From Fundidesulfovibrio soli (lineage in GTDB: Bacteria; Desulfobacterota; Desulfovibrionia; Desulfovibrionales; Desulfovibrionaceae), in the NCBI RefSeq assembly GCF_022808695.1, contig NZ_JAKZKW010000005.1, forward strand, positions 62,001 through 126,000: a stretch of 64,000 nucleotides of DNA, in the 5' to 3' direction. The notes under the pieces were generated by a model. It had not been told where the DNA came from and did not search any database. It saw nothing but the letters and a program-made list of their open reading frames with translations. Made by a program: the position numbers and the translations under genes. This document shows, one piece after another, positions 40,439 through 64,000 of the stretch (position 1 is its first letter; each line of letters starts with the position of its first letter).

Positions 40439-40514
<76 letters not shown>

Positions 40515-40532
40515 CACATTTCCCAATGAATG

Positions 40533-40920: not shown

Positions 40921-42739
<1,819 letters not shown>

Positions 42740-42747
<8 letters not shown>

Positions 42748-44059
42748 CTCTTTTAAAGAATACACCGTCAGTCATTTAATTCGTGACGGAATCCTCGAAG
42801 TCGGAGATGGGTATCGGGCTAAGAATTCTGAAATGAGTCCGACAGGTTTACCATTTATTAGGGCTGGAAATTTAAATGGGCAGATAGACACCGAGCATTG
42901 TGAATTACTTGGGTTTGACAGCGTACGACTCGCTGGCAACAAGATAAGTAGATATGGCGATGTTGCCTTGACAACAAAGGGCACAATTGGGCGCATAGCA
43001 TTTGTAGACAGTGACACAAAGAAATTTATCTACTCACCTCAAATATGCTATTGGAGAGTGTTGAAACAAGACAAGTTGTGTCCGCGTTTTTTATTCTACG
43101 CCATGAAAGGGCCTGCCTTCAAACACCAGATGGACTGGTCTTCTGGTCAAACAGACATGGCACCGTATATTTCTCTGACAGATCAGCGCACTGCCTTCAA
43201 AATTGAGTTTCCTTGTATTGAGTACCAACAAGCCATCGCCTCCATCCTCGGCTCCCTCGACGACAAAATCGACCTCAACCGCCGCATGAACGAAACCCTC
43301 GAATCTATGGCCCGCGCCATCTTCAAGGACTGGTTCGTGGATTTCGGCCCCACGCGGGCGAAAATGGAAGGCCGCGCCCCCTACCTCGCGCCGGAGATGT
43401 GGGAGTTGTTCCCGGGTCGGTTAGATGAGGAGGGGAAGCCCGAGGGGTGGCGACTTAAACCAGTATATGACATGGCCGTCTGGACCAATGGTGCTGCTTA
43501 CAGTCAAGAACACTTCAGCGATGATCCGTACGCTTTGCCAATCGTTAAAATTGCAGAGCTTAAATCTGGTATATCTGCAAATACGAAGCATTCCGTTGTT
43601 AACCTTGGAGATAAATACAAAATACACAGCGGAGAGCTTTTGTTTTCGTGGTCAGGAAATCCAGACACATCTATCGATACGTTTATATGGTCGCATGGTG
43701 AAGCGTGGCTCAATCAGCATATATTTTCTGTTCGAGAGAATGGCGAATGCTCCGTGGTGTTGCTGTATAGTTTGCTTAAATACCTCAAACCACGCTTCTC
43801 AGAAATTGCCAGGAATAAGCAAACAACAGGGCTCGGGCACGTAACTAAAAATGATCTTCAGAACCTTTTTATTTGTATTGGTGATTGCCAAACGAGGAAA
43901 GCCTTCGACAGGCTAGTGGGGCCGCTTGATCAGAACCTTCGAAGCAACATCCGCGAGGACAAAACCCTCGCCCGCACCCGCGACCTCCTCCTCCCCAAAC
44001 TCATGTCCGGCGAAATCCGCGTCAAGGACGCCGAGAAAGCCGTGGAGAACGTCCTGTGA
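42740..44059 (+). CDS. hsdS: Type I restriction-modification specificity subunit
   Basis: HsdS sets the DNA target. The 439-residue protein has two target-recognition domains (about residues 5-165 and 235-385), each followed by a conserved helical spacer ([20 protein letters not shown] and the C-terminal [18 protein letters not shown]). The two recognition domains are markedly AT-rich (about 42,760-43,210 and 43,440-43,930) whereas the spacers are GC-rich like hsdM, a mosaic typical of domain exchange. It overlaps hsdM (8 bp) and the next gene (GTGA). Confidence 0.93.
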
Positions 44060-44916
44060 CCCCTACCCCCACGTTCAAGGAAGGCGACTATGTAACCCAC
44101 GCAACCCTCGCCAAGTGGGGCCTGGGCAAGGTTCTGGAACCGCTCAGCGGCGGCATCGTCCGCATCTTCTTCGAGTACGAGGGAGAGAAGAAGATGCGCC
44201 AGGACTTCCTGGCCCCAGCGTCGAAACCCGCCAGCCACCCCGTCCTGGACAGGATCGACCGCCTCCGCACGGTGAAGGGCTTCATCCCCTTCCCCGGCAT
44301 GGAATCGGCGTTCCTCGCCAAGTTCCCCCAAGGGTTCTCAGACCCCGCTTACGTGGAGAACGAGCGCGTCTACAAAGCCAACGCCTCCGCATTCCTGCGG
44401 CAACATCTCTCCCGGGAGTCGCTTCTGCCGTTGATCACGAACGAGGACTTCGAGACCGTTTGCAAACTGGCAAAGAAGGTCGTCAGCAAGACGAACCTGA
44501 TTTTCGCCAACGAGTCCATGGACCTGGCGGACGGGATCAAAAAAGGGGAGGCCGAACGGAGGCTGTTCGCCCTGGCCTTGGTCGACCTCCTGCATGGGGA
44601 GGGCGACCTCGGCCCCCGATTCGACGGTTTCGTGGACGCCCTGGAGGCGCTCGACGCCTGCAAGTGGACCACGGCGACCTACTTCCTCTCGCTGTACGAT
44701 CCAAACCAATACATCTTCGTCAAGCCGTCTTACATCCAGAAGGCCGCCCAGGCCGTCGGCCTCGACATCGGCTATACGACACGGCCAAACTGGGCCTGCT
44801 ACCAGCGGATCCGGGGGCTGATCGACTACATCTCCGGTCAGCTCTCAAAGCGCGACCTGCTTCAGCCCGCAGACCTCATTGACGTGCAGGGTTTTATCTG
44901 GACCTCACTCACCTAA
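44056..44916 (+). CDS. DUF3553-like N-terminal protein of unknown function in the RM operon
   Basis: The 286-residue product begins with a short beta domain (FKEGDYVTHATLAKWGLGKV, then IVRIFFEYEGEKKM, about residues 7-52) resembling DUF3553/CarD-like Tudor-type domains that bind partners or nucleic acid. The remaining 230 residues are mainly helical, without recognised motifs. The GTG start overlaps the hsdS stop, and the gene ends 13 bp before the DUF262 gene, so it is translated within the restriction operon. It is not a standard type I subunit; a regulatory or accessory defence role is an inference. Confidence 0.75.
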   Translation: MTPTPTFKEGDYVTHATLAKWGLGKVLEPLSGGIVRIFFEYEGEKKMRQDFLAPASKPASHPVLDRIDRLRTVKGFIPFPGMESAFLAKFPQGFSDPAYVENERVYKANASAFLRQHLSRESLLPLITNEDFETVCKLAKKVVSKTNLIFANESMDLADGIKKGEAERRLFALALVDLLHGEGDLGPRFDGFVDALEALDACKWTTATYFLSLYDPNQYIFVKPSYIQKAAQAVGLDIGYTTRPNWACYQRIRGLIDYISGQLSKRDLLQPADLIDVQGFIWTSLT

Positions 44917-44929
44917 GGGACATTCCGTT

Positions 44930-46696
44930 ATGAGCGAACCCAAGACCTGCTTCAAACGAGTGGACTACGACCTCTCCAGCCTGCTCCACTTCATTGACGT
45001 GGGGGACATTGGCCTGCCGGACATCCAGCGTCCGTTCGTCTGGGCCAACGCCAAGGTCCGCGACCTCTTCGACTCCATGTACCGGGGATTCCCGGTGGGC
45101 TACCTGCTGTTCTGGGAGAACGCTAACGTCAATGGCGCGAAGGCCATTGGCTTAGATGCGAAGGCTCATACGGTCCCTGCGCGGTTGATCGTTGATGGGC
45201 AGCAAAGGCTTACCTCCCTGTATGCGGTGTTCAGGGGGAAGCTTGTCCTGGACGCGGATTACAAGGAGCGGCGGATAGAGATCGCCTTCCGGCCACGGGA
45301 CGGCAAGTTTGACGTAGCAGACGCTGCCATCAGGAAGGACCCGGAGTGGATACCCAACATCTCCGAGCTGTGGGTGTCCAGCAAGTCGAGCTATAAGCTG
45401 GTCAGTGAATTCATCCAGATGCTCTCTGCCCGGGCTCCCCTCACGGACGATGAAGAAGAGATGATCGCCCACAACCTGGATAGGTTGTTCGACCTGCAAA
45501 AGTACCCATTCACGGCTCTGGAGATCGCTTCGTCGGTGGACGAGGAGCAGGTGGCGGATATCTTCGTCAGAATCAACAGCGAGGGTGTGAAGCTCAACCA
45601 AGCCGATTTCATCCTGACCCTGCTTTCGGTGTTCTGGGACGAGGGCCGTGCGGCTTTGGAGACGTTTTGTCAAACTTCGCGGTATCCGGCAAAGCCGGGT
45701 GCGGTGGCGTCTCCCTTTAACCACTTCATCCAACCGGACCCGGACCAGCTGCTGCGTGTGAGTGTGGCCTACGGATTCGGAAGGGGCAGGCTCAAGAGTG
45801 TCTATCAGGTTTTACGAGGCAAGGATCTGGAAACGGACATCTACTCCCCGGAACACCGGGAGAAGCAATTCGGTATACTGGCTGTGGCTCAAGCCCAAGT
45901 GCTGGACCTCACCAACTGGCACCAGTTCTTGAGCTCCCTCGTTGGGGCGGGGTTTAGGAGCGCGGAGATGATTTCTTCGCAGAACGCCCTTCTTTACGCC
46001 TATGCGTTCTATCTGATCGGCAGGATTCGCCACAACGTGCCAGAGCATGTTCTGCAAAAGACCATCGGTAGATGGTTCTTCGCGTCCACCTTGACGGGAC
46101 GTTACACGAATTCACCCGAATCGATCATGGACGCGGACCTCAACCGTATCAAGACGGCCAAGACCAGCGATGACTTTGTACGAATTCTCGATGAGATCAT
46201 GTCCAGCGAGCTGACCAACGACTACTGGAGAATAACCTTGCCTGCCGACCTGGACAGTTCATCAGCCCGGAACCCTGGACTGTTCGGTTACGTTGCCGCC
46301 CAGAACAGGCTTGGTGCGCCCGTGCTCTTCTCGCACAAGAAAGTTTCAGACCTGATCGACCCCGCGCTCAAGACTAAGAAGAAGGCCCTTGAGCGCCACC
46401 ACCTGTTCCCGAGGGCGTGGTTGGAACGCCAGGGCGTAGAGGACATGAAGCTCATCAACCAGATGGCAAACTTCGCACTATTGGAATGGCCGGATAACAT
46501 CTCCATTAGTGACACCTCGCCGATGGAATACGTTCCCGAGGTGCGGTCTCGGTTCACTGCTGTCGAGTGGGCTACCATGTGCGAGATGCACGCCTTACCC
46601 GAGAACTGGGAAACACTCTCCTATGATGCGTTCCTCCTGCGTCGGAGGGAGCTGATGGCAGATATCATCCGCCGGGGATACGAAACATTGAGGTAG
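44930..46696 (+). CDS. DUF262/DUF1524 (GmrSD-like) protein
   Basis: This 588-residue protein has the DUF262 signature (DIGLPDIQRPFVWANAKVRD, then LIVDGQQRLTSLYAVF with the DGQQR motif, about residues 25-100) used in nucleotide-dependent restriction enzymes of the GmrSD type and in other defence proteins. Near residue 490 it has LERHHLFPRAWLERQG, an HNH-like (DUF1524) nuclease motif. It may act alone against modified DNA or as part of the adjacent system. Start at 44930 follows AAGGGA; the stop is 3 bp before hsdR. Confidence 0.88.
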   Translation: MSEPKTCFKRVDYDLSSLLHFIDVGDIGLPDIQRPFVWANAKVRDLFDSMYRGFPVGYLLFWENANVNGAKAIGLDAKAHTVPARLIVDGQQRLTSLYAVFRGKLVLDADYKERRIEIAFRPRDGKFDVADAAIRKDPEWIPNISELWVSSKSSYKLVSEFIQMLSARAPLTDDEEEMIAHNLDRLFDLQKYPFTALEIASSVDEEQVADIFVRINSEGVKLNQADFILTLLSVFWDEGRAALETFCQTSRYPAKPGAVASPFNHFIQPDPDQLLRVSVAYGFGRGRLKSVYQVLRGKDLETDIYSPEHREKQFGILAVAQAQVLDLTNWHQFLSSLVGAGFRSAEMISSQNALLYAYAFYLIGRIRHNVPEHVLQKTIGRWFFASTLTGRYTNSPESIMDADLNRIKTAKTSDDFVRILDEIMSSELTNDYWRITLPADLDSSSARNPGLFGYVAAQNRLGAPVLFSHKKVSDLIDPALKTKKKALERHHLFPRAWLERQGVEDMKLINQMANFALLEWPDNISISDTSPMEYVPEVRSRFTAVEWATMCEMHALPENWETLSYDAFLLRRRELMADIIRRGYETLR

Positions 46697-46699
46697 ATC

Positions 46700-49600
46700 A
46701 TGCCGGGAATCGCTGAAAGCCACGTGGAAGAAGCCTCGCTGACATGGCTCCAAGAGCTGGGGTATTCCGTTGATTTCGGACCGGATATCTGCCCCGACGG
46801 TTCCCGGCCAGAACGTGTCGGCTACGACCAAGTAGTCCTCCAAGAGCGACTTTCGGAATCCATTCGCCGGATTAACCCACATCTTCCTGCCGACACTATC
46901 GAAGAGGTCATTCGGAGGATATCCCAAAGCGAAACTCCTTCCCTGGTGGAAGAGAACCGCCGCTTGCACCGGATGGTCGTCGAGGGCGCGGACGTAGAGA
47001 TTGCACGCGAAGATGGAACCATAGGCGGCGACAAGGTTCGCCTCATCGACTTCGAATCTCCCGAGAACAATGATTGGCTTGCGGTGAATCAGTTCACAGT
47101 GATCGAGGGGAAGGTGAATCGCCGTCCTGATGTGGTGGTTTTTATCAACGGCCTGCCCGTGGCGGTCATTGAGCTAAAGAACCCCGGCACCGAGAATGCC
47201 ACCTTGGAGAGCGCCTACAACCAGCTACAGACCTACAAGGATCAGATTTCTTCGTTGTTTCGTACCAACGCGGTTCTGGTCGCCTCGGACGGACTCCAGG
47301 CCCGCATAGGCTCCCTGACGGCCAACCAGGAACGTTTCATGCCCTGGCGCACCACTGACGGGAAGGACGTGGCCCCGAAGGGCCACCCAGAATTGAGTGT
47401 GCTCATCGAGGGTGTTTTCGAGAAGCGCAGGCTCCTGGACCTCATTCGGGACTTCACGGTGTTTGGCGACACCGGGGCCGGAGTGGTCAAGATCGTGGCC
47501 GGATACCATCAGTACCATGCCGTTAAGCATGCCGTTGAGAGCACCGTCGCGGCCACCTCCCCCAAGGGAGATAGGAAGATCGGCGTCATCTGGCATACAC
47601 AGGGGTCGGGAAAGAGCCTCCTGATGGCGTTTTATGCCGGACAGCTGGTTCGGCGGCAGGAGCTGGAGAATCCGACGATTTTGGTCATCACCGACCGAAA
47701 CGACCTGGACGACCAGCTTTTCAACACCTTCTCCATGTGCCGGGAGATCATCAGGCAGACGCCGGTCCAAGCCAACAGCCGCGACGAATTGCAGAAGCTC
47801 TTGAACAGGGCTTCCGGCGGCGTCATCTTCACAACCATTCAGAAGTTTTTTCCGGAGAAGGGCGAGGCGGAGTACCCGCTGCTGACCGAAAGACGCAACG
47901 TGGTGGTCATCGCCGATGAGGCCCATCGAAGCCAGTACGGGTTCAAGGCACGAGTTGCCCAGAAGTCCGGAGAGATGGCCTATGGGTTCGCCAAGTACAT
48001 CCGCGATGCTCTGCCCAATGCTTCATTCATAGGATTCACCGGGACGCCCATTGAGCAGGATGACGTGAACACACCTGCGGTTTTTGGCGACTACATCGAT
48101 ATCTACGACATCAGTCGAGCCGTTGATGACGGGGCCACCGTCCCTCTCTATTATGAAAGCCGCTTAGCCCGGATCGAGCTGCCCGAGGAAGAGAAACCCC
48201 GGATAGACGCTGAGATCGCGGAACTCACTGAAGATGACGCCTTGAGCGAACAAGAACGGCTCAAGCGCAAATGGGCCACGGTGGAATCCTTGGTCGGCGC
48301 ACAGAAACGGTTGAAGTTGGTCGCCCAAGACCTGGTTCGGCACTTTGAGGATCGCGTGGCCGCCATGGACGGCAAGGCCATGATGGTCTGCATGAGTCGG
48401 CGCATTTGCGTGGCCCTATATAACGAACTCGTGGCATTGAGGCCGGAGTGGCATGGCGAGGATGACAATTTCGGTGCGATCAAGGTGGTGATGACCGGCT
48501 CCGCCTCGGACCCGAAAGAGTGGCAGGCCCACATAGGGAACAAGAGCCGCCGAGATTTGCTCGCTAAACGGGCAAAGGACCCTAATGATCCGTTGAAGCT
48601 CATCCTGGTTCGGGACATGTGGCTGACCGGGTTCGATGCGCCTTCGATGCATACCATGTATGTGGACAAGCCCATGAAGGGCCATGGTCTCATGCAGGCG
48701 ATAGCCCGCGTTAACCGGGTATTTCGGGACAAACCAGCCGGGCTCATCGTGGACTATATCGGGATCGGCCAGAATCTGAAGAATGCCTTGGGACAGTATT
48801 CGGACTCTGATCGTAGGCAGGCCGGGATTGATGAGGCAGAAGCCGTTGCGGTCATGATCGAGAAGTTCGAGGTGGTGAAGGCCATGTTCCACGGCTTTGA
48901 CTACCAAAAGGGGCTTTTCGGAACTCCACATGAACGATTGCTGGCCTTGGCTGGCGCAATCGAGTGGATTTTGGATAAGCAGAACAAGGCGGCGGCCAAG
49001 GAAAAGACAGAGGACGCCAAGAAGCTTGCTAACCGCCGGTTTCAAGACGCGGTTCTCGCTCTATCCAAGGCGTTTGCCCTGGCTGGGGCCAGTGATGAGG
49101 CGCGGGCTATCCGTGACGAGGTAGGCTTCTTCCAGACAGTACGAGTGGCACTGGTTAAGTCGGTTCCGGGCTCAGGCGTATCTGCCACCAACAAGGAGTT
49201 CGCGATCCAGCAAATAGTGAATCGGGCCGTTGTTTCCACGGATATCGTGGACATCCTCGCTGCTGCGGGCCTGACCTCGCCGGACATCTCGATCTTTTCT
49301 GATGAGTTCTTGGCCGAAGTTCAGCAGATGGAGAAAAAGAACCTCGCGCTGGAGGGCCTGAAAAAACTACTCAATGACGAGATTCGGTCCCGAAGCCGGT
49401 CGAACATTGTTGAGACCAAGAAATTCTCCGAGTGCCTGGAGCAGGCGATCAAGCGCTACCATAACAATGCGATCAGCACGGTAGAAGTGATTCAGGAACT
49501 CATCGAGTTGGCCCGGGAGATACGGGAGGCGAGAAAGCGCGGAGAGGAATCTGGATTAAGCGACGAAGAGATCGCCTTCTACGACGCCCTGGCAGAAAAC

Positions 49601-49840
49601 CAGAGCGCCATGGAAGTGATGGGGGATGCCTCGTTGAAAGTCATCGCTCATGAACTCATGACAACCCTGAAGAAGAGCGTGACCATCGACTGGGTCCACA
49701 AGGCCAGCGCCAGGGCAAAGATGCGGGTCTTGGTCAAGCGTATCCTTCGAAAATACGGATATCCGCCAGACCTTCAGGACGCCGCTATCCAAACAGTACT
49801 TCAGCAGGCCGAGGTCTTGTCGGCGCAGTGGGCGGCGTGA
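46700..49840 (+). CDS. hsdR: Type I restriction endonuclease subunit
   Basis: HsdR cuts DNA after ATP-driven translocation. The 1046-residue protein has an N-terminal nuclease domain with [19 protein letters not shown] (PD-D/E-x-K), the helicase motif [14 protein letters not shown], the DEAH-type [29 protein letters not shown] and motif VI-like [17 protein letters not shown]. All usual catalytic motifs are intact. It is the last gene of the operon hsdM-hsdS-44056-44930-hsdR. Composition is moderate GC, lower than the core genome. Confidence 0.97.
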
Positions 49841-50592: not shown

Positions 50593-51294
50593 ATGGCTAC
50601 AAAGATTTCGTGGACTGATGATACCTGGAACCCCGTCACAGGATGCACGAAGCACAGTGCCGGGTGTGACAACTGCTACGCGGAGCGTATGGCCCCGCGT
50701 TTGAGAGGCATGGCAAACCAGAATGGGAAGTACCGGAACGGTTTTGAAGTGACCTGCCACCCCGAGGTTCTCTCGAAACCGCAGAGGAGCCACGTAAGGC
50801 GCATGTTTGTAAACAGCATGAGCGACCTCTTCCATAAGGATGTCTCGCTGTCGTTCATCACCCAGGTATTTGAAGTCATGGGGCAGGTGCCAGCGATAAC
50901 ATTCCAGATCCTGACGAAACGCGCGGAGCGCTTGGTGGAATTGGCTCCTCAACTTACTTGGCACCCAAATGTTTGGATGGGGGTCACGATTGAGGCCGAC
51001 GACTACACCTTCCGTGCCGACTTGCTGAAGCAGACTGCGGCAGCGGTCAAATTCGTTTCACTTGAACCCTTGCTGGGTCCCTTGCCAAGTCTTGATGTCG
51101 CTGGCTTGGACTGGGTGATCGTTGGCGGAGAAACCGGACCCGGAGCAAGGCCGATGCTTGAGCCCTGGGTGCTGGACATCCGTGATCGCGTTGTCAGCGC
51201 AGGCATCCCGTTCTTCTTCAAGCAATGGGGCGGCCGTGGCAACAAGACACGTGGAAAGATGCTCCAGGGAAAGCTCTGGCACCAGTTCCCGTAG
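50593..51294 (+). CDS. DUF5131 (phage Gp37/Gp68) family protein
   Basis: The 233-residue protein starts with the hallmark KISWTDDTWNPVTGCTKHSA and the three-cysteine pattern CTKHSAGCDNCYAERM (near residue 18-34), typical of phage Gp37/Gp68 proteins that are related to radical SAM enzymes. Later parts (QILTKRAERL, FVSLEPLLGPLP, WVIVGGETGPGARPM) also match. Such proteins are carried by phages and integrative elements; a three-Cys-motif partner (TcmP) is often adjacent but is not seen here. Start at 50593 follows AGGAGC. Confidence 0.88.
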   Translation: MATKISWTDDTWNPVTGCTKHSAGCDNCYAERMAPRLRGMANQNGKYRNGFEVTCHPEVLSKPQRSHVRRMFVNSMSDLFHKDVSLSFITQVFEVMGQVPAITFQILTKRAERLVELAPQLTWHPNVWMGVTIEADDYTFRADLLKQTAAAVKFVSLEPLLGPLPSLDVAGLDWVIVGGETGPGARPMLEPWVLDIRDRVVSAGIPFFFKQWGGRGNKTRGKMLQGKLWHQFP

Positions 51295-55437: not shown

Positions 55438-55760
55438 CGTGGATCCATCTCGCCCTGGAGGCACCGGCAGAGATCCCCACCGCCCAATTCCCATCCCGGG
55501 GGGAGCCCTTCCCCAAAACGGCCCCCTACCGCTCCCAACTGGACCGAGCCAGGGTTTCCCTTCCCCCGTGACCTTGGACCCAGGAGGGGGCAAATATGGC
55601 CCAAAGACTGAATTTGAGGACCGTGAGTGGGCTCAATTCTGATGAAATCGTCGTTTTTTGCGCGTTTTTTTTGCTGTTTTTGCGGCTAATAATGTATTTT
55701 CGACGCAATTATAGAGAAATATGGTGATCAATTACCAAACATCATTACATGGAGAATGTT
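55438..55760. other. GC-rich to AT-rich spacer before the small regulator
   Basis: A Pro/Gly-rich open frame (55439-55642) exists but has no ribosome binding site or homologous look, so I do not call it. The last 100 bp are AT-rich and probably hold the promoter of the next gene. Confidence 0.4.
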
Positions 55761-56372: not shown

Positions 56373-56400
56373 CAATTGTAAACATGCATTGGAGGTTGTG

Positions 56401-56958
56401 ATGAAAGTCGAACCGTTCATTGAACTGAAAGACATCAAGAGCATCAAGCGGATGCTCAAGGACAATCCTCGGGATTTTCTGCTCTTCATCATGGGAATTA
56501 ACTCAGGACTGCGAGCACAGGATCTTCTTGAACTTCGGGTGCGAGACATCCAGGACGTCAAGATCGGGTCGCGCATTTCGCTAAGAGAGAAGAAGACGGG
56601 CAAGGAGAACGTCTTGATCATCAACCATGAGATCAAGGCTGCTGCCGATGCCTACTTGGGTACAACCCCGGCAGAACCGGAGCATTACCTGTTCAAATCC
56701 CGCAAGGGAAAGAACTATCCGCTGACTACCTTCGCCGTGACCAAATACGTGAAAACCTGGGCGGCCGCGCTGAACCTGAAAGGCAACTTCGGTGCGCATA
56801 CGCTCCGTAAGACCTGGTGCTTCCATCAAAGGAAGACCTACGGTGTTTCCTGGGAGGTCCTCGCCAAACGGTTGAACCACTCGAGCCCCTCCATCACCCG
56901 CCGGTACCTCGGCATCCAGGAAGAGGAGGTCGAGGAGATCTTGCTCAACATCATCTGA
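56401..56958 (+). CDS. Tyrosine recombinase, catalytic-domain-only
   Basis: The 185-residue protein is a tyrosine recombinase reduced to the catalytic domain. It shows the first active arginine (SGLRAQDLLELRVRD), the HTLRKTW box (His and Arg), the later HSSPSITRRYLG with the nucleophile tyrosine. No arm-binding or core-binding domain precedes it. The ATG at 56401 has GGAGG 6 bp upstream. Such small integrases occur in phages and satellites and may resolve dimers or act with other factors. A terminator follows. Confidence 0.9.
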   Translation: MKVEPFIELKDIKSIKRMLKDNPRDFLLFIMGINSGLRAQDLLELRVRDIQDVKIGSRISLREKKTGKENVLIINHEIKAAADAYLGTTPAEPEHYLFKSRKGKNYPLTTFAVTKYVKTWAAALNLKGNFGAHTLRKTWCFHQRKTYGVSWEVLAKRLNHSSPSITRRYLGIQEEEVEEILLNII

Positions 56959-56964
56959 TCATCA

Positions 56965-56986
56965 GGGGCCATCCGGCCCCTTTTTT
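56965..56986 (+). terminator. Rho-independent terminator
   Basis: GGGGCC (56965-56970) with GGCCCC (56975-56980), loop ATCC, then TTTTTTC. Confidence 0.9.
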
Positions 56987-57100
56987 CGCGGAGGGGCTTT
57001 ACATTTCCATGGAGGGCGCATAAACATTCCCTGCCCGGATTAGCCATAGTGGTTTGTATTAGAACCGCCTATTGCATATTCAACCTCATTCGAGGTGGAT

Positions 57101-57322
57101 ATGTCCCCAGCTCCCGCTTTCCTGACCCAAGCCCAAGCTGCTGAGTACCTGAGCTTCGCGCCCCGCACCTTCCGCGACCTGTCAAAGAAGTATCTCCTGC
57201 CGACCTACGGCCCTAAGCGCAACCGTTTCCGCAAGGAAGACCTGGAGGCGTTCATGTCCAATCCCGTGATTTTTCTGGAAGAGTCGGTGACCATACGCCG
57301 TCCCAGAAAAGCTATCATCTAA
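57101..57322 (+). CDS. Excisionase/MerR-like helix-turn-helix protein
   Basis: The 73-residue protein has a winged-helix excisionase pattern: LTQAQAAEYLSFAPRTFRDL and then YGPKRNRFRKEDLEAFM. Its position 12 bp before the full integrase is the usual xis-int order, so it probably directs excision of the element. ATG at 57101 is preceded by GAGGT; a GTG at 57095 is the alternative. Confidence 0.85.
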   Translation: MSPAPAFLTQAQAAEYLSFAPRTFRDLSKKYLLPTYGPKRNRFRKEDLEAFMSNPVIFLEESVTIRRPRKAII

Positions 57323-57334
57323 GGGAGATGGACC

Positions 57335-58354
57335 ATGATACGTCAAAAGGGAAACTCCTGGTTCGTTCGCTGGCGCGAGAACGGTGCCCAGAAGCAGAAA
57401 CACTTCGGTATCGGTCCTGAGGCGAAGCTCAAGGCTGAACTGTACGAGTCCGAAATCAAACTGGCCAAGAAGCGCGGCGAGGATCTGTCCCAGAAGCGCC
57501 ACCGCCAGGGACTGTTTTTTAATGAACTGGGCCAACTGTACGTTGATAACTTACGGGCAACTGGCCGCTCCGAAAACCACATCAAGAACATGGTCACGCT
57601 CCTGAACAACGTGTTCGTCCCATTGATGCCGGACAGGCCGGTTGCGGAGCTGACCTTTGAGCACCTGCTTACGTTTGCTGGAGAGTTTTCCGGGAGGGCT
57701 CAATCGACCCGGAACCGGTACATGGACTACATCAACGCCATCTTCAATTTCGGCGTGGCGCACAAGCTGATCAGCGAAAATCCCATGGCGAACTGGAAGA
57801 AACCGAAGGAAGCCAAGCGGGACGTCCAGCTCTCCGTGAACGATCTGGGCCGGATCATCCAGCACGCAGAGCCGCATCTTGCATGGGCACTGGAGGTATC
57901 ATTCAATCTCGGTGTCCGCACCGGAGAAAGCGAACTGCTTGCACTCCAATGGAGGCAGGTCGACTTCGGCCAGGGAGAGATCAAGGTATTTGCCCCTAAG
58001 ACCAGGACTCACCGGATAATTCCTATCAAGGCTGAGTTCCTTGAAAGGCTTCGAGGGAAGATGGCCGAATCCGCTTCCAGCTCCGTCGTGGAGTACAAAG
58101 GGAAAGCGGTAAAATCCCTGCGCCGGTCGTTCCGGTCGGCCTGCGAGAAGGCACGGATTGAGTATCCGGTCCGATTCTATGACGTGCGCCACCTGTACTG
58201 CACAACGCTTCTGAACAATGGCGCGGATTTGGCCGCCGTGAGCAAGCTCATGGGCCACAGCACAATTAAGATGACCACGGATTCCTACTACCATACCCAG
58301 AAAATTGAGAAGACCCGTGCAGTGGGCCTCCTCCCCAACATTACTAGCGTTTAG
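57335..58354 (+). CDS. int: Phage-type tyrosine integrase
   Basis: The 339-residue protein has an N-terminal arm/core-binding part (EGFERK-type basic region, LTFEHLLTFAGEF) and a C-terminal catalytic domain with GVRTGESELLALQW (first Arg), VRFYDVRHLYCTTLLNNG (Arg-His box, the first His of the HxxR being Tyr) and MGHSTIKMTTDSYYHTQ with the nucleophilic tyrosine. It is likely the integrase that carries this element, immediately after the xis-like gene. The attachment site used is not visible; no repeat of the tRNA-Ala end was found in the window. Confidence 0.9.
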   Translation: MIRQKGNSWFVRWRENGAQKQKHFGIGPEAKLKAELYESEIKLAKKRGEDLSQKRHRQGLFFNELGQLYVDNLRATGRSENHIKNMVTLLNNVFVPLMPDRPVAELTFEHLLTFAGEFSGRAQSTRNRYMDYINAIFNFGVAHKLISENPMANWKKPKEAKRDVQLSVNDLGRIIQHAEPHLAWALEVSFNLGVRTGESELLALQWRQVDFGQGEIKVFAPKTRTHRIIPIKAEFLERLRGKMAESASSSVVEYKGKAVKSLRRSFRSACEKARIEYPVRFYDVRHLYCTTLLNNGADLAAVSKLMGHSTIKMTTDSYYHTQKIEKTRAVGLLPNITSV

Positions 58355-59121: not shown

Positions 59122-59384
59122 CTACCATTGTTTTGCCGTGATCTTCTTCATCACCTCGATTTCGAGGTCACGCTCGACCAGGAGTTTCTTCAGCCTGCGT
59201 TCTCCTGCTCCAACTGGCGGAGCTTTTTCACATCATCAGCGTTCATGCCGTTGAAGCGTTGCCGCCACGTGAAAATGGTCTGCTCGCTGATGCCGTGCCG
59301 CTTGGCCACCTGCGCCACCAGGTCGCGGTCAGCCTCACGCAGGATGCTCACCATCTGCTCTTCTGAAAAGCGTGTCTTCCGCAT
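59122..59384 (-). pseudogene. Decayed IS3-family transposase orfA
   Basis: The reading MRKTRFSEEQMVSILREADR to RQLEQENAG (64 residues) is IS3/IS407-type OrfA with its HTH (AKRHGISEQTIFTWRQRFNG). A single-base change after GCA shifts the frame to an early stop at 59190; the next frame continues RLKKLLVERDLEIEVMKKI to the proper end at 59122. OrfB and clear terminal repeats are missing, so the insertion sequence is a remnant. Confidence 0.85.
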
Positions 59385-59411
59385 GGCTCCCTCTTCTTCG
59401 TCGGGAGCCAC

Positions 59412-59924
59412 CTCCTCAAGTTTCAGCTGGTCCGAAAAGTGCCGATCAGGTCATTCCAATTCGCTCCCTTGGGGATAAAAACTAGAATGTCATCAGGTAC
59501 TCGGAAAGCATGGCTTGAAGCCGGGAGAATTTGCCTGGGTTCGTCCTGGGTACGACTACGACCTGTGAGTTGGATTATGACCAGCAGTCGAGGGCGTTTT
59601 GCTTCTACCTGGGCACCGGTAACATTATGGCGCGCAAAAAGAAGTCCAAGGCCTCCGACGATTTTAAGGAGGCACATGGAGCCAGTGCGGTAAGCCCCGT
59701 GGCCGAGTACGTAGGAGCCAAGGAGGACGTCTCGTAGGGCGTCAGACAACGACCAGATAGCCATGCACGGGGGGAGACATTCGGATATTTAGGGGAACAT
59801 GGTTGACATGGGCTGCACCATGTGGAAAATAAAAATAAAAAAATAATGATTGCACTTGGTTGGGCGGGATACAAATATTTCATAGTATTTGGTTGTGATT
59901 GTAAAAGAGAGGAAGGTTGGAAGT
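59412..59924. other. Spacer before the dynamin genes
   Basis: No reliable gene. A 36-codon reading from ATG at 59627 (MARKKKSKASDDFKEAHGAS) is possible but its ribosome binding site is poor. The last 150 bp become AT-rich and probably carry the promoter of the dynamin pair; AGGAAGG at 59910 is the ribosome binding site of the first gene. Confidence 0.35.
59627..59737 (+). CDS. Doubtful small ORF (36 aa)
   Basis: The frame starts MARKKKSKASDDFKEAHGAS and is lysine-rich at the N-terminus. There is no good ribosome binding site and no family resemblance. Listed only because small basic proteins are common in this region. Confidence 0.2.
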   Translation: MARKKKSKASDDFKEAHGASAVSPVAEYVGAKEDVS

Positions 59925-62450
59925 ATGCTCTTAGAAAAAGTCAAAATGCTTTTAGAAGACAACCTTGCTAAGTGGTGTGAACTAGAAAAGCTGTGTCAGG
60001 AGCACGGTTTTTTTGATGAATTTGATTTTAGCGGCTTATCACCTGACTCTGGCAAGTTGTCTAAAATATACGAATTCCTAAGCTGCCCTCCACTCACATT
60101 AACCGTCGCGGGTACGACTTCTTCTGGCAAAAGTACTGTCCTCAATATGATGCTAAAGGCGCAGTTGCTTCCATCGGACCCGAGGGAAATGAGTGCTGGC
60201 ATAGTAGAGATTGTAGACTCTAAGACAACTGAGTTTGAATGTTATTATGATTTAAAGATTGATGAAAATAGCGCACCATTCCTCAAGTACCATGATATTT
60301 CCCAGGATGATGTTTGCAAAAATCTTGAAATTTACATGAATGATGACAGGGAAAATGGTAGGAACCGGTTTTATCGGGTTAAGCACCCAATGCATGTCAA
60401 AGAGGTTCTTTCTAATGTCGTTTCGAAAAATATCGACATGCGACTTGTCGACTTGCCTGGATGGTCTCATGCCGCACACAATGTTGTTGATGACATCTAT
60501 AGCTTAGTTGATGGGTCACTTTGGCTTTTTTTAATTGATTTTGTAGATCCTGATGAGGAGAAGTTGAAACAAAATGTGCAAAAAATGCTTTCGCGGGTGA
60601 AGCTTTTAGGTGCGTCACTCGACTCTATATTGTTTGTGTTTACGAAGTTTGATGTTTATTTGAAAAATAATATGAAGGGATCTGCTCAAGAGAGCGGTGA
60701 TTCGCGCCTTGTGAAGGCGAAAAACAGCCTTCAAAAAATTATAACGAGTGTGGCAAGGTCGGTCTTCGCACAGGGAAAAGACAACAAAGAGATTGAGTTA
60801 AGTGACATTAGGTTTACTGCGATATCGCCAGAGCCAGCTCTCCATGCTCTTATTTGTGAAGAACTATTGAAAGGTGACCCTGGAGATGACAGGTTGATTG
60901 ACTCGATTAGGTTCTTGCGCGGTAGTTATGCCTGTCTAATTGAAGCTGATTTCTTAGACAATCTACAGGGGAATCCTCGACTCTGGTCGCAGGAAGACAA
61001 AGTTCTGTTTGTTGAGCAGGTTAAGGAGAATAGTGGCGCAAATTCTTTTTATCTGGGTCTTCAGAATCACTTAAGAGATAGTTTTGAGGGTTTGGTCATG
61101 CCCTCATTTTTTAGACTTATCGACTCTGTTGTTGGCGTCGGTGCTTATGATGATATTGATGGTGGCACACTTAATATAGGGCCCCTTGCTCGATTTCAAA
61201 TTTCCCTTGATAACGTGAAAAGCACCTTGGAGCATACAAAGGTAGAAATTTTAGAAAAATTTGAAAAACTACGCGCCAGCATTAATCAGGCTTATGAGAA
61301 AGACAAGGGCGTATTGAAGCAGTTTATAAATAATCTGAAAACTACTGTAAAAGAAAGTCTTAGGGATGACACGGCGACTCTTCGCTTTTCGCAGTCAGTA
61401 AAAGAAGAGGTTGCTAGTTTTCATTTGGCTCACGCAGCCAAATGGGGAATGAACATAAATGATTTATATGTATTTGGAGCATTGCCAGAGCGCCTGGACA
61501 GTAAATACAGGAGCCAAATTGACGTTTTGACAAGACAATTTTCATCACTAGACTTTGACGAACTATTGTCAATTTTTAAAGAGTCTGTTTTGCATGAAAC
61601 ATATATTAAAACAAAAGCAGATTTTGATGTGTTTAAGGGGTTTCTTCAGGGGTCTGCGATCGCGAAAAAGGCATACGAAGAAGGTTTGACTGGACATGTT
61701 GGAACAATTGGAGGCAGGGAGCCAGACCTTGATAAGTATTTAGTGTATTACGATGGAATTCGCAATAACGTTGCATATGCAATTGTCTTTTCTTTCGAGC
61801 AGGCACTTGACAGTATTCACCAAGATCTGAAAAGAGCAGTCACAACCTGTCTTGAGTGTTATCATTTAAATACAGTTACATCGATAAGGCTGTTGGCGAT
61901 CGATCATTGCGTTAATCTTCCTTCATTGCCAACAGTGTCGTTTGATAAGTATGGAGCCATTAAGATACCAAAGTTCAGGCCGAAGTGTTTGATAGAGAGT
62001 GTTATTGAGCCGATGAAGATGTTTATACCCTATGTGGAGAAAGAAAAAAGAACAGTCTATTGGACAATAGATATATTCAAATGGTTCCCTCGAGAGAAAG
62101 TAGTTGAAGTTAATAAGGTAAAAGAGAGCGAAATTACAAAATATACTATTGCGCCAATCAGGAGTCTATTTGATGAAAACGCTGCATATATTAAAAATAG
62201 TAGCTTTGAGATGACCATGATTTTGCTGGATAACATTGTGGCTGCCTTTGAAGAGCAAATAAACAATCATAACACGTCATATGATACTATCATCTCTACA
62301 GTTATACAGGACGCTGTCAGAGAAAGGGAGTCGTTTGAAAATTTAGAGATTGAGCAAAGGCAGTGTTTAATTTCTTCGATAGCCACAAGTTTTGATGCAC
62401 TTTGTGGTTCATATGATATGCTTAAGGGTGAATGCTTGACCGGGTATTAG
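59925..62450 (+). CDS. Large dynamin-like GTPase
   Basis: The 841-residue protein is a dynamin-superfamily GTPase. Motifs are G1 GTTSSGKST (Gly63), the G2-like threonine/serine region around SAGIVEIV (about residue 87), G3 DLPGW (Asp176) and G4 TKFD (Thr240-Asp243). The rest (about 300-841) is mainly helical, as in bacterial dynamin-like membrane-remodelling proteins. It is AT-rich, with codon use unlike the host core, and was probably acquired. It is followed 27 bp later by a second GTPase of the same kind. Antiphage function by analogy to dynamin-based defence is an inference. Confidence 0.88.
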   Translation: MLLEKVKMLLEDNLAKWCELEKLCQEHGFFDEFDFSGLSPDSGKLSKIYEFLSCPPLTLTVAGTTSSGKSTVLNMMLKAQLLPSDPREMSAGIVEIVDSKTTEFECYYDLKIDENSAPFLKYHDISQDDVCKNLEIYMNDDRENGRNRFYRVKHPMHVKEVLSNVVSKNIDMRLVDLPGWSHAAHNVVDDIYSLVDGSLWLFLIDFVDPDEEKLKQNVQKMLSRVKLLGASLDSILFVFTKFDVYLKNNMKGSAQESGDSRLVKAKNSLQKIITSVARSVFAQGKDNKEIELSDIRFTAISPEPALHALICEELLKGDPGDDRLIDSIRFLRGSYACLIEADFLDNLQGNPRLWSQEDKVLFVEQVKENSGANSFYLGLQNHLRDSFEGLVMPSFFRLIDSVVGVGAYDDIDGGTLNIGPLARFQISLDNVKSTLEHTKVEILEKFEKLRASINQAYEKDKGVLKQFINNLKTTVKESLRDDTATLRFSQSVKEEVASFHLAHAAKWGMNINDLYVFGALPERLDSKYRSQIDVLTRQFSSLDFDELLSIFKESVLHETYIKTKADFDVFKGFLQGSAIAKKAYEEGLTGHVGTIGGREPDLDKYLVYYDGIRNNVAYAIVFSFEQALDSIHQDLKRAVTTCLECYHLNTVTSIRLLAIDHCVNLPSLPTVSFDKYGAIKIPKFRPKCLIESVIEPMKMFIPYVEKEKRTVYWTIDIFKWFPREKVVEVNKVKESEITKYTIAPIRSLFDENAAYIKNSSFEMTMILLDNIVAAFEEQINNHNTSYDTIISTVIQDAVRERESFENLEIEQRQCLISSIATSFDALCGSYDMLKGECLTGY

Positions 62451-62477
62451 TGCAAATCTCCCTGGAGGGGTCTTTCT

Positions 62478-64000
62478 ATGAAGGCTTGGCGTGAAGCTTG
62501 TCTTGACCTGGAGAAAGAAACAGCAAAGCTAAAATTGCTGTATCAATTTTTTTGTGATTATTCTGCCAAAAAGGCTACTTACTCAAATTTAGTCAGTGAT
62601 TCTAGATGGTCAGAGGCTTTAAATGCTCTTGAAAGTAGAATTAAGGACAGGCTTTTTAAAATTGCAGTAGTTGGGATGGAGAAGGCTGGCAAAAGTACAT
62701 TTATAAATGCTTGGCTGGGCGATGAAATTTTGCCGTACGCTCCGGAACGTTGTACATATACAACTACAAATATTATATCTGTTGATTCTGACGACAAGCA
62801 AGCGCTTTGTGTAAATTTTCACACACGTGAGTCTTTCGAAGAAATGGTGCAGAATCTGACATGCGAGTCTGGGACTGAAACAGATGAACAAAGGCGAGCG
62901 CTATCTGACTTGAACAACATTAATACTTATAACAAATCCATACACGAGCAATTGAAACTCGCTGAGGCTTCGAATTTCAGTTGGCGTTATGGCTTTACTA
63001 ACTTGTCCAGCATTAAAGATCAGCTTTCTAAGTATGTTTCAAACCCAGAATATATATATGCCGTCAGAGGTGTCACTTTATATACTTCCAGACTTATACA
63101 AGTTCATGATGTGGCCTTTTATGACGTTCCAGGATTAAATTCTGGGCTTAGACGTCACCAGCAAGAAACTAAAGACATCTTGAATGATTGCGATGCAATA
63201 ATCATTGTTCAAGACATAGAGAGGCCAAGTTTAACGGATAGCGAAAAGAGAATCATTCAATACGCAACCGAAAAAGTGTATGGCTCTTCAATTTCAGATA
63301 AGGCGTTTGTTTTTTTATCGAAAACTGATAAAATAAGATCGGGAAGTGTTTTACGCTCAAATTTAGGCATTGCCAAGCAACAGTGGCTTGAGTTGGCGAG
63401 AATACCTGATAATAAAATTTTTTTTGGTTCCCCAGGTGCCCATTTAATTTTGAATACAAATGCGTCTGAGGATTTAATTGAGCAAGTTGGAAGTAAAGAC
63501 AAAATTGCGCATTTCGTTAATTATCTTTCTGACGAATCTGGTTTTTCGAAGGAAGAGATTCTAGGCGTAAGTCGATCAGTTGAAAGGATTAACAACTTTG
63601 TTTTGAATGAAGCAACTCAAAATTTGAAACAATACTTTAACACTATAAAAAGTACCCTAGTTGCAGAAGTTAGCGCTGCTATCATTGATGGAGCTAGGGA
63701 CGCCGAAAGCGCTGAACTTGTATCGCTTACTGATGAAGCTCATTACAAAAGCCTGCTTAAAGCGCATATGATGAACGTCATACGCGCACTCGATGCAAAG
63801 TTACTCAGTGACTTGAACGGCTCGGCAGGTGATGATTCGTTTACAGCTAGAGTTTCTAAATCTATGCACTCTGCGCTGATAAACTTAGTAGAGTCAAATC
63901 CTCTTTTCGCTGAATTTTCTTCGCAGAAGGCTTGCATAACCAATATTTTGCTTTCACTTGAATTGGCTAAGTCTTCTCCTGGTTTAAGTAATGAAGTTGT
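62478..64000 (+). CDS. Second dynamin-like GTPase, cut by the window edge
   Basis: The frame stays open from ATG at 62478 to the end of the window (507 codons seen). It has G1 GMEKAGKST (Gly66), G3 DVPG (Asp216), G4 SKTD (Ser281) and a helical region after about residue 340, so it is a second dynamin-like GTPase. CTGGAGGGG precedes the start. The neighbouring gene is different in sequence beyond the motifs, consistent with a two-protein system in which two dynamins form a hetero-oligomer. The C-terminus and any further partner gene lie outside the window. Confidence 0.88.
   Translation, partial: MKAWREACLDLEKETAKLKLLYQFFCDYSAKKATYSNLVSDSRWSEALNALESRIKDRLFKIAVVGMEKAGKSTFINAWLGDEILPYAPERCTYTTTNIISVDSDDKQALCVNFHTRESFEEMVQNLTCESGTETDEQRRALSDLNNINTYNKSIHEQLKLAEASNFSWRYGFTNLSSIKDQLSKYVSNPEYIYAVRGVTLYTSRLIQVHDVAFYDVPGLNSGLRRHQQETKDILNDCDAIIIVQDIERPSLTDSEKRIIQYATEKVYGSSISDKAFVFLSKTDKIRSGSVLRSNLGIAKQQWLELARIPDNKIFFGSPGAHLILNTNASEDLIEQVGSKDKIAHFVNYLSDESGFSKEEILGVSRSVERINNFVLNEATQNLKQYFNTIKSTLVAEVSAAIIDGARDAESAELVSLTDEAHYKSLLKAHMMNVIRALDAKLLSDLNGSAGDDSFTARVSKSMHSALINLVESNPLFAEFSSQKACITNILLSLELAKSSPGLSNEV

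Follow-up and report, generated by a model that had tools for sequence, protein, structure and literature searches.

A probable antiphage operon around a heterotypic pair of dynamin-like GTPases at the end of an integrative element in Fundidesulfovibrio soli

Introduction

Dynamin-like proteins (DLPs) are common in bacteria, where their jobs are mostly unknown; in animals, dynamin-like GTPases act in cell-autonomous immunity. The bacterial system Eleos reportedly consists of LeoA and LeoBC and is said to have an antiphage role. In published work, Eleos is called a dynamin-like defense system and grouped with the dynamins (PMC11811056); LeoABC is presented as tandem dynamins tied to vesicle release (PMC4159319); most bacterial DLPs are stated to be operon pairs, and a Campylobacter DLP pair to form a tetramer and tether liposomes (PMC6104087); and DynA of Bacillus subtilis is reported to delay phage lysis (PMC8844932). 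Here, we analyze a stretch of 64,000 nucleotides (nt) of Fundidesulfovibrio soli (contig NZ_JAKZKW010000005.1, positions 62,001–126,000; hereafter, the window), at whose right end begins an operon of four genes encoding two dynamin-like GTPases, DynA and DynB, an alpha/beta-hydrolase, Hyd, and an orphan protein, P4. We read it as a probable antiphage operon that moves horizontally. Coordinates above 64000 are extended coordinates, taken from the continuation of the same contig past the window end.

Results and Discussion

Comparison with described systems

The locus resembles Eleos in having two adjacent genes of the dynamin superfamily in a defense or island context, and differs from it in the length of the proteins, 841 and 752 amino acids (aa) against model lengths of 559–601, and in the addition of a hydrolase and an orphan; we know of no counterpart of these two genes in Eleos. 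The PADLOC LeoA and LeoBC models match DynA and DynB over short, mostly G-domain stretches, at 20–28.5 bits. DynB matches LeoA at E 2e-7 (model positions 45–98 of 559) and LeoBC at 3.6e-5 (64–162 of 601); DynA matches LeoA at 7.2e-5 (10–80 of 559) and shows no match to LeoBC at E 1. The two dynamins, of three in a Lysinibacillus plasmid cluster, that were given to the same models span positions 103–420 and 103–546 of LeoA, and 52–434 and 65–452 of LeoBC. Given these longer spans, assignment to Eleos is unjustified: no match over most of the LeoA or LeoBC length was seen, and the kinship with LeoABC/Eleos suggested by the first-pass annotation of the window finds no support.

With the Campylobacter pair, Cj-DLP1/2, the locus shares a heterologous pair in one operon; the present pair differs in being mobile, rare, and accompanied by two more genes. 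An AlphaFold2 model of a DynB relative (locus L043, see below), built from an alignment of six rows including the window part of DynB, predicts long helices after a mixed core, at low confidence (mean predicted local distance difference test score 69.4, predicted template modeling score 0.52). Like B. subtilis DynA, which is linked to phage resistance, DynA and DynB are dynamin-like proteins, here with a probable antiphage role; B. subtilis DynA is one fused chromosomal protein, whereas here two separate proteins, with an enzyme and an orphan, lie on a mobile element.

The dynamin pair and its operon

DynA and DynB are dynamin-like proteins with a GTPase domain carrying the G1, G3, and G4 motifs of the dynamin superfamily. 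Both are intact open frames, adjacent and on the same strand, and both score above the Pfam Dynamin_N cut-off of 27 bits (DynA, 44.0 bits, E 3.2e-11; DynB, 70.3 bits, E 2.5e-19). The motifs of DynA, numbered from ATG, are GTTSSGKS at 63 (G1), DLPG at 176 (G3), and TKFD at 240 (G4); an alternative upstream TTG at 59889 would make the protein 853 aa and move them to 75, 188, and 252. Those of DynB are GMEKAGKS at 66, DVPG at 216, and SKTD at 281. The first-pass annotation had named two adjacent dynamin-superfamily genes with exactly these motif positions, and had taken the proteins to be distant from each other, in agreement with a blastp match at E 0.005–0.006 over 50 residues only.

The top NCBIfam match of DynB is DynmDynABac, a general bacterial dynamin model (55.7 bits, residues 45–244; cut-off 1600), with a score exceeding that for LeoA; DynA scores 14.1 bits with it. 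The nearest match of DynB in the PDB is BDLP (2j68; E 6e-7, 56 residues), whereas for DynA the PDB yields nothing better than E 0.059. DynA also shows a weak mad8 match in PADLOC (1.2e-4). The first-pass annotation had named best matches to housekeeping dynamins as evidence against its reading, and the matches of DynB to DynmDynABac, far under the cut-off, and to BDLP count against it in part.

Beyond position 64,000, where the first-pass annotation had suggested looking for the end of DynB and for partners, the contig yields this end at 64736, two further genes, and the right border of the element, none of them visible in the window. The four genes form a tight operon on one strand, with 27 nt between DynA and DynB, 6 nt between DynB and Hyd, and 3 nt between Hyd and P4. 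A promoter-like site upstream of DynA (Table 1) is a consensus match only; the same scan found 25 such sites against a mean of 21.5 in shuffled sequences.

Hyd resembles the DUF726 (PF05277) alpha/beta-hydrolases in its score (48.7 bits, cut-off 22.6; model positions 174–334 of 343) and in its conserved Ser, Asp, and His; it differs from other DUF726 hydrolases in its Cys-rich N terminus and in sharing an operon with dynamins. Ser232 (in AHSLG), Asp289, and His327 are invariant in all three aligned proteins (Hyd and two other DUF726 proteins), and probably form a catalytic triad. The N terminus contains cysteine pairs, with a weak likeness to a zinc ribbon (A2L_zn_ribbon, E 0.073, below the cut-off). 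No Hyd relatives were found in plasmids or phages, or, in a search with A1, in viral contigs. DUF726 matches occur in two of six DynB-bearing genomes (G690 and G688); the G688 match was judged a frame artefact and dropped. DUF726 and dynamin together were not found in the open-licence literature searched.

At E 1, P4 matches nothing in Pfam, NCBIfam, or PADLOC; it has no relatives in plasmids or viral contigs, and its one PHROGs match, to a family of unknown function, is weak (E 0.0038). Its RSTIVH motif, spotted by eye, follows the HEPN-like pattern R-x4-H, which, being so short, is common. Assignment of P4 to HEPN was not confirmed: PF18739 gives no match in the own genome at E 10; Pfam lists no HEPN family for the whole protein or for the region alone; the scores against three HEPN_Apea proteins were equalled by 9, 69, and 124 of 200 shuffles; and hhalign did no better than with three shuffles each.

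Recurrence of the pair and two lineages

DynA and DynB occur together in two other genomes (loci L043 and L069); the pairing thus recurs, and its lack, which the first-pass annotation had named as evidence against its own reading, was not what we found. In L043, a Myxococcota metagenome-assembled genome (MAG; phylum by tree label), DynB is directly followed by a gene of 308 aa with the GTTSSGKS box, a G-domain form. In L069 (genome G921), a single-transmembrane (TM) protein of 274 aa stands between a DynA-like protein and DynB, and the 16-kb stretch also contains McrBC-like genes and a tyrosine integrase. The L069 DynA-like query found one plasmid, from Nostoc (29% identity over 90%), where a single-TM protein, a JukB-like protein, and HmaC/HmaB-like genes come after the DynA relative (L105, 8992–20289, conjugative plasmid), with no second dynamin annotated on the 20-kb stretch. 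Including the window, there are four DynA-type loci, three with DynB and three in defense or mobile contexts.

Both proteins are rare. Weak G-domain matches to DynA (E 3e-4 and 5e-4) were seen in 2 of 394 other sampled genomes of the phylum; the DynA query found no relatives in plasmids or viral contigs, and none of 26 pattern matches in genome contigs was confirmed. Within the family, DynB matches 8 of 148 genomes besides its own (9/149 with it) over at most about 175 residues; these G-domain matches are not counted as pairs, no DynA-type neighbor being seen (the picked frames missed the dynamin of L035). Further G-domain matches are on two plasmids, and none was confirmed in viral contigs. 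When genome contigs were scanned with DynB stretches joined together, six loci came up: L043, L044, L048, and Riflebacteria, Clostridia, and Ruminococcus MAG loci. L044 has DynB alone and L048 is cut within DynB; their contigs are near-identical, so they count as one place. With a DynB profile, 11 of 235 genomes of the L043 phylum match at E 1e-10, and two over most of the profile (the L043 genome itself and G921); further profile searches gave 1/219 (the centre's own genome, the match cut by the contig end) and 1/63 (G921 itself).

In a tree of 34 G-domain rows, DynA and DynB stand apart, consistent with the separate branches expected for them. All three A rows group together (95/88), and the B rows lie inside a 10-row clade (100/99) with the L045–L047 MAG dynamins and the Myxococcota dynamins with a GLEKQGKS box. 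Independently of the tree, the window DynA is the best of 27 dynamins scored with a profile built from the three other A proteins (69.3 bits, the next 48.0), and the window DynB reaches 326 bits with a profile built from three other B proteins, the next non-training row reaching 175. Judged from such comparisons, DynA and DynB are two separate, small, patchy lineages.

Several related loci stand beside these. The GLEKQGKS dynamins, without a visible DynA-type neighbor in four genomes of the L043 phylum (L071, 3012–5522; L072, 7605–10172; L073, 9640–12231; L074, 4630–7143), were dropped as pair members on this ground; proteins of three of the four genomes are in the tree, all three in the DynB clade. 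In the Riflebacteria (L045, 940–6345) and Ruminococcus (L047, 1075–7408) MAGs, a DynB relative is followed by an unusual GTPase of 904–926 aa with the G1 box A-x-KKAGKSV and by small proteins, one of which, in L047, has a single TM stretch. By hhalign, the single-TM proteins found in L069, L105, and L047 gave no support for homology with one another. Clusters of three dynamins occur on plasmids of Photobacterium (L013, 4204–10977, inside the transfer region) and Lysinibacillus (L014, 8821–15861).

The element and its tRNA site in sister genomes

The operon makes up the final cargo of an element of 27 kb. A 48-nt direct repeat from the tRNA-Ala 3′ end, with one mismatch, bounds this element; the right repeat begins 196 nt after P4. 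With this repeat at both ends and two tyrosine recombinases inside, the element is integrative. The restriction genes and integrative element noted nearby at first pass are borne out by HsdM, HsdS, and HsdR, by the recombinases, and by the repeat, and the AT-richness of the operon by its GC content of 38.4%, against 67.9% (window 1–40438) and 63.3% (67500–75999) in the flanks.

The tRNA locus is present in all seven genomes of the genus that were searched, including its own. In four of the six sisters (G403, G441, G463, G502), the same contig contains an extra repeat copy without the tRNA 5′ half before it; similar 44–45-nt matches are also seen on other contigs of some sister genomes. G403 has a DUF5131 relative (72%), a relative of the helix-turn-helix (HTH) protein encoded at 55749 (42%), and counterparts of the two recombinases (70% and 42%); near the same tRNA, G441 has both recombinases, and G463 has the longer recombinase with its small neighbor protein. 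The frames compared from L097–L103 contain no relative of the four operon genes at E 1e-5. Six sister proteins picked by eye (five from G403, one from G463) were given to PADLOC, and three show clear matches: a retron-type reverse transcriptase (G403), a type IIG enzyme (G463), and a SIR2-STAND protein (G403), the latter with ThsA-like similarity and situated past the second repeat. A G403 NERD protein shows a weak match to PglW, and two of the six have none.

Downstream of the right repeat, the sequence resembles that downstream of the tRNA in five of six sisters (the match extends beyond the repeat by 28–38 nt in L097, L101, and L102; for L100 and L103 it is about 9 nt, and L104 lacks it), which suggests that the element was inserted between the tRNA and older material. 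In the genus, tRNA-Ala(GGC) seems to be a turnover site for defense cargo (L097, L098, L101).

Proposed function and alternatives

What is observed is a recurring pair of GTPase-motif proteins of separate lineages. Here the pair shares a compact operon with a DUF726 hydrolase and an orphan, located where an attachment (att)-flanked restriction element ends, in a tRNA-Ala at which sisters carry other defense genes. With a probability of roughly two in three, this is a four-gene, horizontally moving antiphage operon around a heterotypic bacterial DLP pair; an antiphage function at the membrane is likely. By analogy with the paired Campylobacter DLPs, DynA and DynB would assemble together and act on the membrane, and phage damage or entry there may trigger GTP-driven assembly. 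More weakly, Hyd, possibly a lipid esterase, and P4 might have an effector or adaptor role and curb phage production via membrane alteration or growth arrest. A specific form of this, abortive infection in which DLPs that sense a phage-disturbed membrane, or assemble on it, switch on the lipase and a second effector, is a tentative suggestion that we hold doubtful; such an architecture was not found described for dynamins in the open-licence literature searched.

Several observations weigh against an antiphage role. Roles other than defense also exist for dynamin pairs, and no strong TM stretch was found in DynA or DynB. The L043 pair is among ordinary-looking genes (by eye; the contig is 6.9 kb); DynA is only 20–24% identical to L043_A and L069_A, and the tree program warns that long branches join at the window DynA and L069_A. 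The full four-gene set is seen at the present locus only, Hyd and P4 not being found with the pair elsewhere: P4 has relatives in none of 296 other genomes of the class, a DUF726 match in G210 has no dynamin on its 17 kb, and the DUF726 contig of G690 has none either, yet is only 4.5 kb long. The sister defense genes rest on chosen proteins, which cover G403 and G463 of the sisters G403, G441, G463, G480, G491, and G502.

The best surviving alternative, itself unlikely, is a membrane-maintenance or vesicle-forming pair (similar to BDLP pairs, IniAC, or LeoABC in its proposed vesicle role) that merely rides the element, the hydrolase trimming lipids for repair. The operon pairing usual among bacterial DLPs and the link of LeoABC to vesicle release (PMC6104087 and PMC4159319, respectively) agree with it, as do the setting of the L043 pair, described by eye, and the best NCBIfam match of DynB to a general model, far below its cut-off. 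Such a role is harder to reconcile with the patchiness of DynB (matches over most of the profile, or cut by a contig end, in 2/235, 1/219, and 1/63 genomes, counts that include query or centre genomes), with a location within an att-flanked, restriction-carrying element, and with the McrBC-like and Hma-like genes that neighbor DynA relatives. We consider it improbable that the operon serves the element itself, by stabilization, transfer, or exclusion of competitors, and not host antiphage defense: it lies beside the recombination module at the element end, and another dynamin cluster is inside a plasmid transfer region (L013), but sisters carry the DUF5131, HTH, and recombinase relatives without those of the four genes (L097–L103, E 1e-5, compared frames), and Pfam reveals no transfer gene in the set of 11 element proteins scanned (a subset of frames). 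A divergent Eleos system is very improbable, the weak LeoA/LeoBC matches of DynA and DynB and the better LeoA match of the Nostoc DynA relative (8.2e-12) being outweighed by the shortness of the best stretches next to the long spans of the two Lysinibacillus dynamins and by two genes absent from Eleos as we know it.

This compact mobile operon of a dynamin pair and a hydrolase offers a tractable test of membrane-remodeling GTPases as possible triggers of bacterial immunity. The operon further points to two small lineages of DLPs missed at full length by the PADLOC models used.

Other features of the locus

The features are collected in Table 1. Within the type I restriction genes, a DUF3553 protein and a GmrSD_N protein, which matches HEC-05 models, are encoded between HsdS and HsdR. 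Between the recombination module and DynA, a minus-strand frame at 59190–59411 resembles, by eye, orfA of an IS3-type transposase.

Table 1. Features of the element and of the operon (coordinates above 64000 are extended).
Feature	Coordinates	Strand	Description
tRNA-Ala(GGC) gene	40439–40514		ARAGORN
Left repeat (attL-like)	40475–40522	+	3′ part of tRNA-Ala(GGC) and 8 nt
HsdM, HsdS, DUF3553 protein, GmrSD_N protein, HsdR	40921–49840	+	Pfam; PADLOC for HsdM, GmrSD_N protein, and HsdR
DUF5131 protein	50593–51294	+	Pfam; 72% identical relative in sister G403
Recombination module	56389–58354	+	Tyrosine recombinase, small HTH-like protein, integrase
Short tyrosine recombinase	56389–56958	+	Pfam
Small HTH-like protein	57095–57322	+	HTH by eye
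Integrase	57335–58354	+	Pfam
Promoter-like site	59803–59830	+	TTGACA-16-GAAAAT; upstream of DynA; consensus match only
DynA	59925–62450	+	841 aa from ATG; dynamin-like GTPase, GTTSSGKS type
DynB	62478–64736 (window ends at 64000)	+	752 aa; dynamin-like GTPase, G[ML]EKAGKS type
Hyd	64743–65777	+	344 aa; Cys-rich N terminus and DUF726 alpha/beta-hydrolase, S232-D289-H327
P4	65781–67232	+	483 aa; orphan with RSTIVH motif
Right repeat	67429–67476 (extended)		Beyond the window; followed by a terminator-like hairpin

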